Origin: Tausonia pullulans
Lineage: Eukaryota > Basidiomycota > Tremellomycetes > Cystofilobasidiales > Mrakiaceae
DNA: 64,000 nucleotides
Reading direction: 5' to 3'
Assembly (NCBI GenBank): GCA_951802195.1
Contig: OX637625.1
Coordinates: 1,054,001 to 1,118,000, forward strand
The notes below the pieces were generated by a model. The model saw only the letters and a list, made by a program, of their open reading frames with translations, made no database searches and was not told the origin of the DNA. Below, in pieces: positions 10,636-15,330 of the stretch. A program made the translations under genes and the position numbers. Every line of letters starts with the position of its first letter. Positions within the stretch are counted from its first letter, which is position 1.

Positions 10636-11268
10636 GGCGGGCGGGGCGCTCTGTTATGTGTTCTCCGGTCCTGTCCTGTCCTCGAAGAGAAGCCTCGTTT
10701 GGTTGATACGCGATAAAGTGTCGCGAGCGAGAAGTGGTGAGTGTCAGAGGAGCGCCTGTCTCTTGCGAAGGAGTTGGCGGAGGATGGTGCGTCGAGTTCC
10801 CTTGGCGACTGGCTCTCGCACTGGATTATTTGGAGGCTGCTTGTATTCTTTTCCATTGGACGAGATAGTAGCGATGAGGGAAACTTGAAATTTTGTGGAT
10901 GAAGAGCAAGGGCAAAAAGGGGTTGCGCCGATCATGGCCCGCGGAGCGGTGCTGTGCCTCACCCAGATCCGTCCTCATCATCGCATCCTTGAAGCCTGGA
11001 AGGCATATCCCTGGCTCTCTCTCCGCATTCCCTCTTCCCAAAGGACTCAACGAATCAGCACCGAGATGGATGAGGCTAGTGCGTTGGTGACGAAGGGCAC
11101 GTGCGCTTTCGCGTCTGCCCTCCCTTCTTCCCTCCTCGCTCGAAAATCAATGTTGACCTCCAACGAGATCGAGGGCAGGTTCGTCGCTCCCCTTCCGTCC
11201 CTTTTTCCAGTATCATCCTGTTTCCCAAGTTCCTGACCGCTTTCCCCCCCTGCTCTTCGTCTTACTTC
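10636..11268. other. Intergenic: RRP4 promoter and RNase P RNA upstream region
   Basis: About 630 bases between the RRP4 start (minus) and the 5' end of the RNase P RNA (plus). No protein gene is supported. GGTTCGTCGCTCC at 11178-11190 loosely resembles a pol III B box and lies in the leader region where yeast RPR1 keeps its A/B boxes; this is speculative. Confidence 0.4.
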
Positions 11269-11791
11269 AGCTCAAAGGCCGCAAAGCTCGCCACGCATCC
11301 CCAGGATCCTCGAAGCGGGCTTCCACCTGCGTATTTCGGCGGATCCTCCCTCGCGAGCGGGATAAGGTCTGAGAATTCCAGTGCCCCCCTTGGTTATTCC
11401 AAGGAATGACCCTAGCCGGGTCCGTCTCTCATACCCGGTCAACGACGGATGGCTCGTTCGTCTGTCGTTGACCCCGAGACGTCGCCGCGCACCAGACAAT
11501 CGCCCGCCAACTCCATCTCCTTTTCCTTCGGGCGAAGGGTTGCCCGAAGACTTCCCGCTCACTAGGGAACGAGGGCTTGTTCTCGGACAGTGGAGTAGGC
11601 ATCTGGGCTTGGAAGCGCTGCGGGGACTGTGTCGCGCCATGTAATCATACAGTCGTCCTCTGGGCGACTCGCTTCCCTACACCCAGGGAAGCACGGCCGG
11701 CACTTGAGTGCAATCTGCGGCTGGTGTATAGCTCCCGAGAGGCAACTCTCGTGAGATGCGCATCAAACTCAATTCAGACTACTCTTGGGCT
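11269..11791 (+). ncRNA. RPR1: RNase P RNA (RPR1/H1-type)
   Basis: Catalytic RNA of nuclear ribonuclease P, which trims tRNA 5' leaders. The 3' end carries CAATTCAGACTACTC (about 11770-11784), nearly identical to conserved region V of human H1 RNA. AAGGTCTGAGA at 11364-11374 matches conserved region I. The two pair as helix P4: GGTCTGA 11366-11372 with TCAGACT 11774-11780. The ends close as P1: AGCTCAA 11269-11275 with TTGGGCT 11785-11791. AAAGCTC at 11283-11289 resembles the H1 stretch just inside P1. AGGATCC 11303-11309 with GGATCCT 11341-11347 fits P3. ACGGCC followed by GAGTGCAAT (about 11693-11713) resembles the CR-IV area. Perfect hairpins fill the rest: a 10-bp stem at 11437-11473, 8-bp stems at 11526-11549 and 11671-11692, and a 6-bp stem with a GCAA tetraloop at 11736-11751. 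Exact ends are inferred from P1. RNase MRP fits less well. Confidence 0.85.
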
Positions 11792-12803
11792 ACCCTCTCT
11801 TCTCGTTCACCTCCTTCCTCTTCTTCCCTCCCGGCGAACGACGCCTCGAACCCGTGCCCGCTGGACGCGGCGAGGTGCGTTGTCGGGAACGTCTCCCTCT
11901 CCTCATCTCCTTTCCCCCTACCTTCACACGCACACACATGATTTTCTGTATTAAGCTTTGACGTACTCGCCAACGAGGGACCGAGAGAGCGGCGCATGAG
12001 AAGAGAGACCTAGGAACGAAAGAACGTCGCGGGCGCGACGGTGGCGTCCAAGCCCCTCGCCTGTTTCCTGGTTTTTGCTTTGGGAAAGAGAGGCCTTGCG
12101 ATCGCCACGGGACGGGCCAAGGAGGGCTTCGCGTCCTGTTGTTCCACGACGACGCCATCGTCGCGTCGGACGAGAGGGGGTCCGTCCTGGAAGCAAGTCG
12201 GAACGCTCGCCCAGGCCGTCGTCTCCTCTGCCGTTCTGCCTCGAATATGAGTGATGATCTTACTCCCCTCCTCCCCTCCCCCGTGACACCCTCTCTCACT
12301 CGTGCGCACAAGCGCTTGCTTACATCTGCCGTACCGGAGTAAGAGTATCAGCCGAAGATCAGCGAAGAAGAAACGGAAGTGGCCATACGCTTTTTCCGTC
12401 GTTTCATCAGGGGGAAAGGAAGACGCGCGCCCTGAAGGGAGATGCGGCATGCATGGACGCGCATCGCCAAGCAGGCGTCCTCCAGCCTTCCCTCTCGGTC
12501 AACACGCGAGCGTCGGACGGAGACGCCATCGCCGGCGGGTTCTTCTGCTGTTCTCAACAATGTTACCCGCTTGTTCGCTCGCACGCTCTCGCTCGCTCCG
12601 CTTTCGCCTGCCTGCTCGTGTTGAAAGAAAGAAGAAATTCGAATCCGATCTCCTGAGCCTTGCTCTGCCCAGCTCCCCACCCTCCTCCCCAACTTCTCCG
12701 CTCTCCATCCCCCTCACAATGTATCTTGCCCTCTCTCTCCCAGGCCGCTGTCCCCACACAACCCCTGTCCCGGAAACCTTCTCTCAACAAAGACAAACGG
12801 CCT
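11792..12803. other. Intergenic, one unresolved minus-strand open frame
   Basis: About 1 kb between the RNase P RNA and the CYT1 stop codon. A minus-strand frame at 12010-12450 reads plausibly in places (segment from ETTAWASVPTCF to KARTRKQ-like basic residues), and a neighbouring frame ends SLVGEYVKA. No clean exon chain or known family emerged. It may hold a small unrecognised gene or only the CYT1 3' flank. Confidence 0.3.
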
Positions 12804-15330
12804 CTAGTGGTCGTGCTTGGAGATGGCGGGAGGGTTGTAGACTGGTGAGGACAACGACGACGACGACGACAACGGAACGTCAGCGAGTGTCTTTCATTGG
12901 ACCGAGATAGAGAGAGAAAGAGAGGGAGGGCCGCCGGGACGCACCAATCTTTCTGCTCTTGATAGGCGCCCACTTGTAGCGCTTGACGTAAAGCGAGAGC
13001 GTCCAGAGCATCGCGAGGATACCCATCGACTGAAGCCCGATCTTGTGGCGCTGGTCGAGCTCGGGCTCGGCGGCCCAGTTGAGGAAGGTGACAACGTCCT
13101 TGGCCATCTGCGTCGTCGTCGCGGGCGTGCCGTCGTCGTACTCGACGAGACCGTCGAAGAGGACGCGACCCATGGCGATGGCACCTCCGGGGAAGTAGGG
13201 GTTGTAGTTGAGACCTGCGAAGCCGGTATGGCGAGGTCAGCAAGTGGGAGGGGGCACCGAGGCCGAGGCTGAGGAAGGGATCAAGACACGTACCCTCGCG
13301 GATCTCGACACCGGCGGGGGGGTCGACGTAACCAGTAAGGAGCGAGAAGAGGTAGTCCTTGAAGGAAGAAAACAGGCCAAGGTCAGAGGGCACCACCTCC
13401 TGACATCGAGTCGACGGCGATCACTCACGACGCCTCCGTGGCGGGCCTTGACAATGAGCGAAAGATCAGGGGGGAGGGCACCGGCGTTTCCGGCACGGGC
13501 AGCCTCCTCGTTGGGGTAGGGAGCCTGGAAGTAGTCGGCGATCTTTCCGGGGCGGTTGAACATCTCTCCCTCGTCGTTGGGGCCGTCCTCGTACTCGAAG
13601 TCCTCAGCCATGGTCTGGAGGAGAGGGGGGTGGAGGGGGGGGGAGGTCGAGCGATGAATTGAGTCAGCAGGGGGTGGGATGGTCACACAAGGGGACAAAG
13701 AGGCCTGCGAGAGAGACAGGAAGCGAGAGGAAGAGAGAGGAAGAGGGCAACACGCGACCAAGGGGAAGGGAAAGCAAGGGCCCGCCCGTCCCCTCTCTGG
13801 GCCAGTGAGAGTCGTGGCGTAGCTACATCACCCCCATCCGTCGAGTTCCTTCTCATGCCAACCGTCGCGAGAGAGAGTGAACAGGGCCACGCACCTTGAC
13901 TTCGTCCACAGTGTGCGAGACTCCAACCATGTTGCGCCAGGCGATCCGGTCGAGCGAGTGGCAGGCGGCGCAGACCTCGCGGTAGACCTGGTATCCACGG
14001 CGGATGCTGTAGGAAAGAGGCGAGTGAAAAGGAAGAGAGGGTCAGGACGAATCGATGACGGCGACAGGGGTGAGCGCAAGTGCGAGGAAGGAGGAGCAGA
14101 AGCAGGGAAGGGCGGCCAGGCGGGGAGAAGGGAGGAGCCGCCTGAGGGGCAGCGAGCTAGCCATCGAGCTCCTCGATCCCGTCCTCTCACACGTATGCTC
14201 TCTCTCTCCCTCTCCCTCTCCGCCCTGAGGGGCAGCTGTAGAGACTGAGGAGAGAGACGAGCGCACGGCAGACAGAGCGGCGGACTCGACGGGGACAAAA
14301 AGCCCAGGGGTCCCCCGCCCGCGCGCCGCTTCTCCCCCAGCCACTGCCGCGCGAGCGAGCGAGCCCTGCCCTCTCGCCTTTCTCCCTTTCGCCGCGCGGA
14401 CGGGGGGTCGACCGCTGGGCCGCCCATCCCCTTTCGACACAGACTGGTTCGAGCTTGGCAGCACGCTCCGCCGCAAGCGAGCGGGAAAGCGTCAAGAGAT
14501 AGAGAGAGAGAGAGCAGATGGAGCGGCGAGGCAGGGAGAGGGACAGACGGTGGGAGAGAGCGCGCGAGGGACCGCCCGCTCTCGAACGGGTCCCCCTCGA
14601 TTGGCTCTCGCCCGCCGCCGTCCCGCCCAGCCTGCCGCCGTCCCGTCCAGATCGAGCGTCACTCACGCAGCGTGGTCAAAGGTGGCCATCCAACCCTTCT
14701 GGTAGAAGGGCCACGCAGGCGCGTGGAGACCCTCCTCGCCGGCCGACATGGCGGACGCCTCGGGGGCGAACGCCGCGAGCGTCTCGGCGCCGTACTGGTG
14801 GGCGTAGACACCGGCAACACCGACGGTCGCGAGCGTGGCCGTGGCGAGGTGGAGGCGGGAAGGGACCCAGGGGCCCTAGGGTGTCGAACGGGGGGGGGTG
14901 GGAGAGTGAGGGGCGAGGGGGACGAGACACAGAGAGGGAGCGAGATGTCAGGACGGGCGCGCGGCGGCACGGAAGAAGGAGAGGGGGGAGCGAGCGAGCG
15001 AGAGAGCAGGCGAGCGCGGCAAGGCGACGCGGCTCCCACCCCTCCCGCGGTAGATCGGGAGATGAAGACTGACGGAGGCGGACGAGGTGGAGGCGAAGCG
15101 AGCCTAAGGGGATAGAGCCATCGAGGAAGGGCGAGAAGAGGAAGCATGTCAGGGAGGGCGAACAGTCGAGAAGCGCGCTTTTCACTTCGCCAGAGAGGGC
15201 AATGAGGCCTAGGTGTCGCTGGGACGGATGGGCATGGAGGAGGGGGGAGGGGGGGTGAAGGGAAGAATGTGCTGCTTACCCCCGACTTGGCAGGGGCCGC
15301 GAAGGCCTTCGAGGCGAACCGAGTGAACAT
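12804..15330 (-). CDS. CYT1: Cytochrome c1, mitochondrial complex III
   Basis: Haem-c subunit of ubiquinol-cytochrome c reductase in the inner mitochondrial membrane; it passes electrons from the Rieske protein to cytochrome c. Exon 1 (ATG 15328-15330) encodes a basic import signal ([17 protein letters not shown]). Exon 2 holds the second hydrophobic sorting segment. Exon 3 holds the haem site [19 protein letters not shown] (CXXCH). Exon 4 gives [19 protein letters not shown], the [19 protein letters not shown] loop and [12 protein letters not shown]. Exon 5 gives [16 protein letters not shown]. Exon 6 gives [15 protein letters not shown], whose Met is the second haem ligand, then the C-terminal membrane anchor [19 protein letters not shown]. 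The last small exon encodes [12 protein letters not shown] and TAG at 12804-12806. Seven exons; intron 1 is about 390 nt and the third (14009-14670) is longer still. The assignment is firm. Confidence 0.96.

Follow-up and report, generated by a model that had tools for sequence, protein, structure and literature searches.

A nuclear RNase P RNA gene in Tausonia pullulans without a recognised RNA polymerase III terminator, and its possible transcription by RNA polymerase II

RNase P is the enzyme that trims transfer RNAs. In the 64,000-nucleotide stretch of Tausonia pullulans DNA analysed here (the window), sequence evidence makes it nearly certain that the interval 11269-11791 on the plus strand encodes the catalytic RNA of nuclear RNase P, as a single gene in the assembly. 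This gene adds a member to a well-known family and is ordinary in kind. Because it carries no recognised RNA polymerase III (Pol III) stop at its end, the balance tips slightly toward transcription by RNA polymerase II (Pol II), in which case a longer precursor would be made and then trimmed to the size of the RNA. The gene and its neighbours are as follows.

11269 to 11791, plus strand: predicted nuclear RNase P RNA (RPR1-like) gene, about 523 nt; matched by RF00009, with ends set by helix P1
8969 to 10635, minus strand: RRP4 (exosome subunit), divergent neighbour; spliced model with 8 exons
12804 to 14164, minus strand: cytochrome c1 gene (CYT1), convergent neighbour; PF02167 found in two pieces

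The locus is matched by the Rfam model RNaseP_nuc (RF00009) at 11278-11793 on the plus strand over the full length of the model (positions 1-301), with 46.9 bits and an E-value of 1.6e-10, the cut-off being 28. No other Rfam match reaches its cut-off anywhere in the 64 kb window and, under a lax threshold applied to 11001-12100, the locus is joined only by NEAT1_1 at 19.4 bits, below that family's cut-off of 50. A search of the whole 23.9 Mb assembly with RF00009 reported this locus and no other, at E <= 0.001 as at E <= 10 (15 of 1303 first-look candidates scored); a higher-scoring RNase P RNA elsewhere was looked for and none was reported at the laxer threshold. The initial annotation, made from the letters, had already called this interval an RNase P RNA gene lying next to RRP4, and both parts of that call hold. 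It had also presumed that so divergent a gene is usually missed, which does not apply here because Rfam recovers the locus at default cut-offs. The two sources differ slightly on the ends, with 11278-11793 from Rfam and 11269-11791 from P1, the latter being the better-paired reading.

The predicted fold of 11269-11800 reaches -232.1 kcal/mol, compared with -194.5 +/- 6.8 kcal/mol for 100 dinucleotide shuffles, none of which is as good (z -5.5). The interval had been described as free of protein genes and, in agreement, none of the four open frames crossing the RNA with a length of at least 80 aa has a Pfam match at E <= 1. Among the protein partners of RNase P, Pop1_N has matches above cut-off in the genome and the Rpr2 domain has two, at E 6.5e-5 and 2.9e-4, both below cut-off; a search of the genome for PRORP gave no match, the control being equally silent. 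From the sequence, we infer that the RNA is expressed, assembled and catalytic. Two contigs of a viral collection that bear the CR-V pattern were set aside as chance occurrences, with no Rfam family match at E <= 0.01.

The helices P1, P2, P3, P4, P7-P12 and P19 can all be drawn from a constrained fold together with the model alignment, using helix names that we take to apply, assigned according to position and the Rfam alignment. In this constrained fold, P4, whose pairs are beyond what the folding program counts, was left unpaired, and P1, P2 and P7 were forced. It has an energy of -216.3 kcal/mol versus -231.4 kcal/mol for the free minimum, a cost of 15 kcal/mol before counting P4 and proteins, and also forcing P8, the base of P9 and the P3 stem costs nothing more. 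The resulting anatomy, all on the plus strand, is the following.

11269 to 11275: P1 5' strand AGCTCAA; partner TTGGGCT at 11785-11791, 7 of 7 pairs with one G-U
11285 to 11291: P2 5' strand AGC-U-CGC; partner GCGGCT at 11717-11722, 6 pairs and a bulged U
11303 to 11347: P3 domain with internal loop; 11303-11309 with 11341-11347, distal 11315-11319 with 11326-11330 (constrained fold)
11364 to 11374: CR-I AAGGTCTGAGA (RF00009 alignment), holding the P4 5' strand at 11366-11372
11376 to 11379: P7 5' strand TTCC; partner GGGA at 11623-11626, 4 of 4 pairs with one G-U, the same columns pairing in the Rfam alignment
11388 to 11404: extra 6-bp hairpin between P7 and P8 (constrained fold)
11408 to 11422: P8 hairpin, 5 of 5 pairs
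11423 to 11481: P9, with a 6-bp base and a 16-bp extension (11437-11452 with 11458-11473)
11483 to 11622: P10/11 and branched P12 (constrained fold), including the 10-bp hairpin at 11526-11549
11521 to 11524: internal TTTT, a potential Pol III stop within the RNA
11629 to 11703: extra branched arm between P7 and CR-IV (constrained fold)
11707 to 11714: CR-IV AGTGCAAT (RF00009 alignment)
11723 to 11764: P19 stem-loop of 16 pairs (constrained fold), capped by a GCAA tetraloop
11770 to 11784: CR-V CAATTCAGACTACTC, holding the P4 3' strand at 11774-11780

The structural elements proposed initially are found in this anatomy. The two conserved blocks, CAATTCAGACTACTC and AAGGTCTGAGA, are at the positions given for them, and they form the P4 pseudoknot, with the 7 bp and one G-U that had been described (GGTCTGA at 11366-11372 with TCAGACT at 11774-11780, 7 of 7 pairs). 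The 7-bp closing helix P1 pairs throughout, likewise with one G-U. Perfect hairpins had been noted in the interior, among them one with a GCAA tetraloop, which corresponds to the GCAA-capped hairpin at 11737-11750, one of 10 bp, located at 11526-11535/11540-11549, and others of 8 bp, located at 11651-11658/11662-11669 and 11671-11678/11685-11692. A first-guess hairpin at 11624-11630/11648-11654 was abandoned, as only 2 of its 7 pairs form and the constrained fold puts other hairpins there.

The pairs of P2 are not encoded in the structure line of the Rfam model, and this helix therefore lends modest independent support. Compared with the Rfam consensus letters (AGC-U-Cau/AUGgcu), pairing is kept while two pairs differ on both sides, a comparison weakened by a 3' strand shifted by a few nucleotides and by a consensus pairing that is our own reading. 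The region of P10/11 and P12 contains the ACCAGA and CUUGGAA blocks in the RF00009 alignment, and the arm at 11629-11703 is, by its position, presumably P15-like.

When set against RF00009 and yeast RPR1, the RNA shares the full-length match, CR-I, CR-IV, CR-V, P1, P2, P3, P4, P7-P12 and P19. It differs in its length, about 523 nt versus 301 model positions, and in the hairpin between P7 and P8, the long P9, the branched P12 and the extra arm before CR-IV. The extra hairpins had been interpreted as a lineage-specific expansion, which holds only in part, since some of this is of a known sort: according to the Bcheck paper (PMC2996960), fungal type B RNAs have an additional P8' stem, and most RNase P RNAs measure 250-550 nt. 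The T. pullulans RNA resembles this type (Bcheck fugB) in having an additional stem by P8 and a length within that range, and the hairpin at 11388-11404 is probably the P8' stem.

A related RNA, that of RNase MRP, which belongs to the same Rfam clan (CL00002), has to be distinguished from this one, and the kinship is what speaks for taking the locus as an RNase MRP RNA gene. On this point, cmscan keeps only the best member of a clan, and the window scans are silent on RF00030 at the RNase P locus. However, a genome search with RF00030 at E <= 0.001 (25 of 191 first-look candidates scored) did not report the RNase P locus and reported only a locus on another contig, C10, with 28.3 bits, below the cut-off of 50.

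G000:C10:442478-443272, minus strand: RNase MRP RNA candidate (L039), about 795 nt versus 80 bases aligned by Rfam

The candidate on C10 carries a CR-I, GGGAAAGTCCCC, which we presume to be MRP-like, and a 3' block, AATGGGGCTCA. Its ends are closed by an 11-bp helix (CCATCGAGCAA/TTGCTCGATGG) that spans 795 nt end to end, with a T6 run starting 8 nt after it. If this reading is right, the MRP RNA would be about 795 nt long, which seems long. The RNase P locus bears RNase P blocks, while the C10 locus bears MRP-like ones, and the chance that the locus described here is instead the RNase MRP RNA gene is negligible.

The neighbouring genes frame the RNA on both sides. For RRP4, two pieces of the spliced model were scanned, and KH_6 was found in the C-terminal one and not in the N-terminal one; its best database relatives, from Mrakia frigida (77% over 90%) and Phaffia rhodozyma (73% over 80%), put this yeast close to Mrakia. 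For CYT1, the first exon, the start and the stop were read by eye. A host gene around the RNA was looked for among ten chosen frames around or across it, without any Pfam match at E <= 1. A frame upstream of the RNA, opening with an ATG at 11066, was rejected as a conserved protein: only one of 8 candidate homologues reaches E <= 1, a frame of 100 aa with 98% identity, and a sole homologue that is near-identical says little on coding. The codon use of its first-exon part lies at the 75th percentile of open windows. This 98% identical frame (P0121) indicates that a second near-identical genome probably exists.

The case for Pol II comes from the 3' flank. After the end of P1, no run of four or more T occurs for 150 nt, the next ones being a T4 at 11942 and a T5 at 12072. 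Such runs start within 20 nt of a site by chance at 2.4% (plus strand) and 3.7% (minus strand) of window sites, so that their absence at the RNase P RNA gene is as expected where no Pol III stop exists. The same genome provides controls. Among the 63 tRNA matches listed, 50 were examined (13 were left out) and one, on C21, was dropped; in the 49 nuclear loci that remained, which represent few isoacceptors, a run of at least four T starts within 30 nt of the tRNA end in every case. These loci have 37 distinct tails, 22 of which begin with exactly T4, and 13 of those 22 have no other run in 120 nt. The contig C21, of 18.8 kb, has closely spaced tRNAs with no T runs in their vicinity, and is probably mitochondrial DNA. 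Both U6 genes above cut-off have a T6 at +13 and a TATA at -31. A third U6-like locus (L008, G000:C5:145573-145677) is AT-rich, divergent and below cut-off with 39.6 bits, its first T4 being at +31. SRP RNA, sought as a further Pol III control, had no match in this genome or in the control genomes.

Genes which we take, from general knowledge, to be transcribed by Pol II (U2, U4 and U5) were considered as well. Nine matches were reported for U2 (L064-L071 and G000:C2:594234-594428), distributed over contigs C1, C2, C3, C4 and C11; eight score 117-125 bits, and the remaining one 63 bits. In the eight of these nine that were examined, all have internal T runs, seven have no run of four or more T within 30 nt and one has a T4 at +25, a pattern resembling that of the RNase P RNA gene. 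One U4 and two U5 genes carry T runs at +5 and +4, which may be Sm sites; with these genes assumed to be Pol II genes, T runs do not split the polymerase classes cleanly. As for promoters, the 70 nt that precede 11269 contain no TATA, and the RNase P RNA gene has no strong B box, the best B-box-like score nearby being 7.3 versus at least 14.7 for tRNAs, with a matrix based on only 5 of 14 distinct tRNAs. Since the MRP RNA candidate also lacks a strong B box and a TATA in its 70 upstream nucleotides, missing promoter signs at the RNase P RNA gene are weak evidence. A yeast-style leader promoter was considered and rejected: strong B boxes are absent nearby, and any box farther upstream would be separated from the RNA by a T5 at 11202-11206.

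Immediately upstream, one more feature touches the 5' end of the RNA.

11179 to 11270, plus strand: intron-like stretch, AG/GTTCGT ... CTGAC ... CTTCAG, 92 nt

This stretch is the only candidate on the plus strand of 10801-12900 when GTNNGT, CTRAY and YAG are sought at the usual distances from one another, and its last base, 11270, is the second of the P1 strand. The introns of RRP4 measure 59-162 nt, and one of them also begins with GTTCGT. Counting both strands of the window and including true introns, the scan finds 0.68 candidates per kb, and one candidate in 2.1 kb is thus unremarkable. When AG is also required ahead of the donor, the rate is 0.07 per kb in the window versus 0.017 per kb in Markov sequence modelled on the local composition, although this stricter form was picked after the sequence had been seen. 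A more elaborate version of Pol II transcription can be built on this stretch: the RNase P RNA gene would have left Pol III, with a Pol II start in the divergent RRP4 promoter region, a leader removed by splicing and a trimming step, while MRP RNA and U6 would have stayed with Pol III. The 3' splice site of the leader would then coincide with the 5' end of the mature RNA. Such a change would be a fungal counterpart, of independent origin, to the switch of insects and crustaceans. This version is tentative and, taken as a whole, rather unlikely.

The main competitor, with somewhat less than an even chance, is that the gene is transcribed by Pol III as usual, the polymerase reading through the internal T4 and stopping at an unusual or distant terminator, for example the T4 found at 11942 or the T5 found at 12072, or some non-canonical stretch of pyrimidines. 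The strength of a T4 terminator depends on its context, and the 3' flank of the gene is pyrimidine-rich. In addition, the RNase P RNAs analysed in PMC4287351, from yeast to human, are stated there to be Pol III transcripts. Against this stand the regular terminators of the tRNA loci, so many of whose distinct tails begin with exactly T4 and have no backup, and the T6 runs of the two U6 genes and of the MRP RNA candidate. Furthermore, the internal run of the RNase P RNA lies in CTTTTCCTT, a sequence shared with the tail of a tRNA locus (L010), where it is the only run of four or more T in the 126 nt after the tRNA. The absence of a recognised Pol III terminator, TATA or strong B box could also mark a decayed pseudogene. 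However, the conserved blocks and the tested helices are intact and the assembly search reported no further copy, while fungi, according to the Discussion of PMC9849065, use an RNP-type RNase P; a pseudogene is very improbable.

Transcription by Pol II, the slightly favoured reading, has a precedent. As described in PMC4287351, with PMC6797745 cited beside it as precedent, insect and crustacean RNase P RNA genes are embedded in Pol II genes and transcribed by Pol II. The locus of T. pullulans is similar to those genes in that the RNase P RNA lacks a recognised Pol III terminator and TATA while the MRP RNA candidate has a T6. It differs in that no same-strand host protein gene was recognised in the scanned frames and in that the intron-like stretch lies upstream of the RNA instead of enclosing it. 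In basidiomycetes, an unusual setting has been described in PMC9849065 for the RNase P RNA genes of Auricularia and Inocybe, which lie in the rDNA spacer; the present gene, also in an unusual setting, is located between RRP4 and CYT1. A literature search found no paper combining RNase P RNA and Mrakia, and titles and abstract openings, with most subscription papers outside their coverage, contained no Pol II-made RNase P RNA in fungi.

If Pol II transcription is true, these yeasts would be a further lineage, within fungi, in which an essential ribozyme changed polymerase, and yeasts lend themselves to testing. Pol II transcription would also support the warning given in PMC4287351 that candidate RNase P RNA genes should not be excluded for missing Pol III signals.
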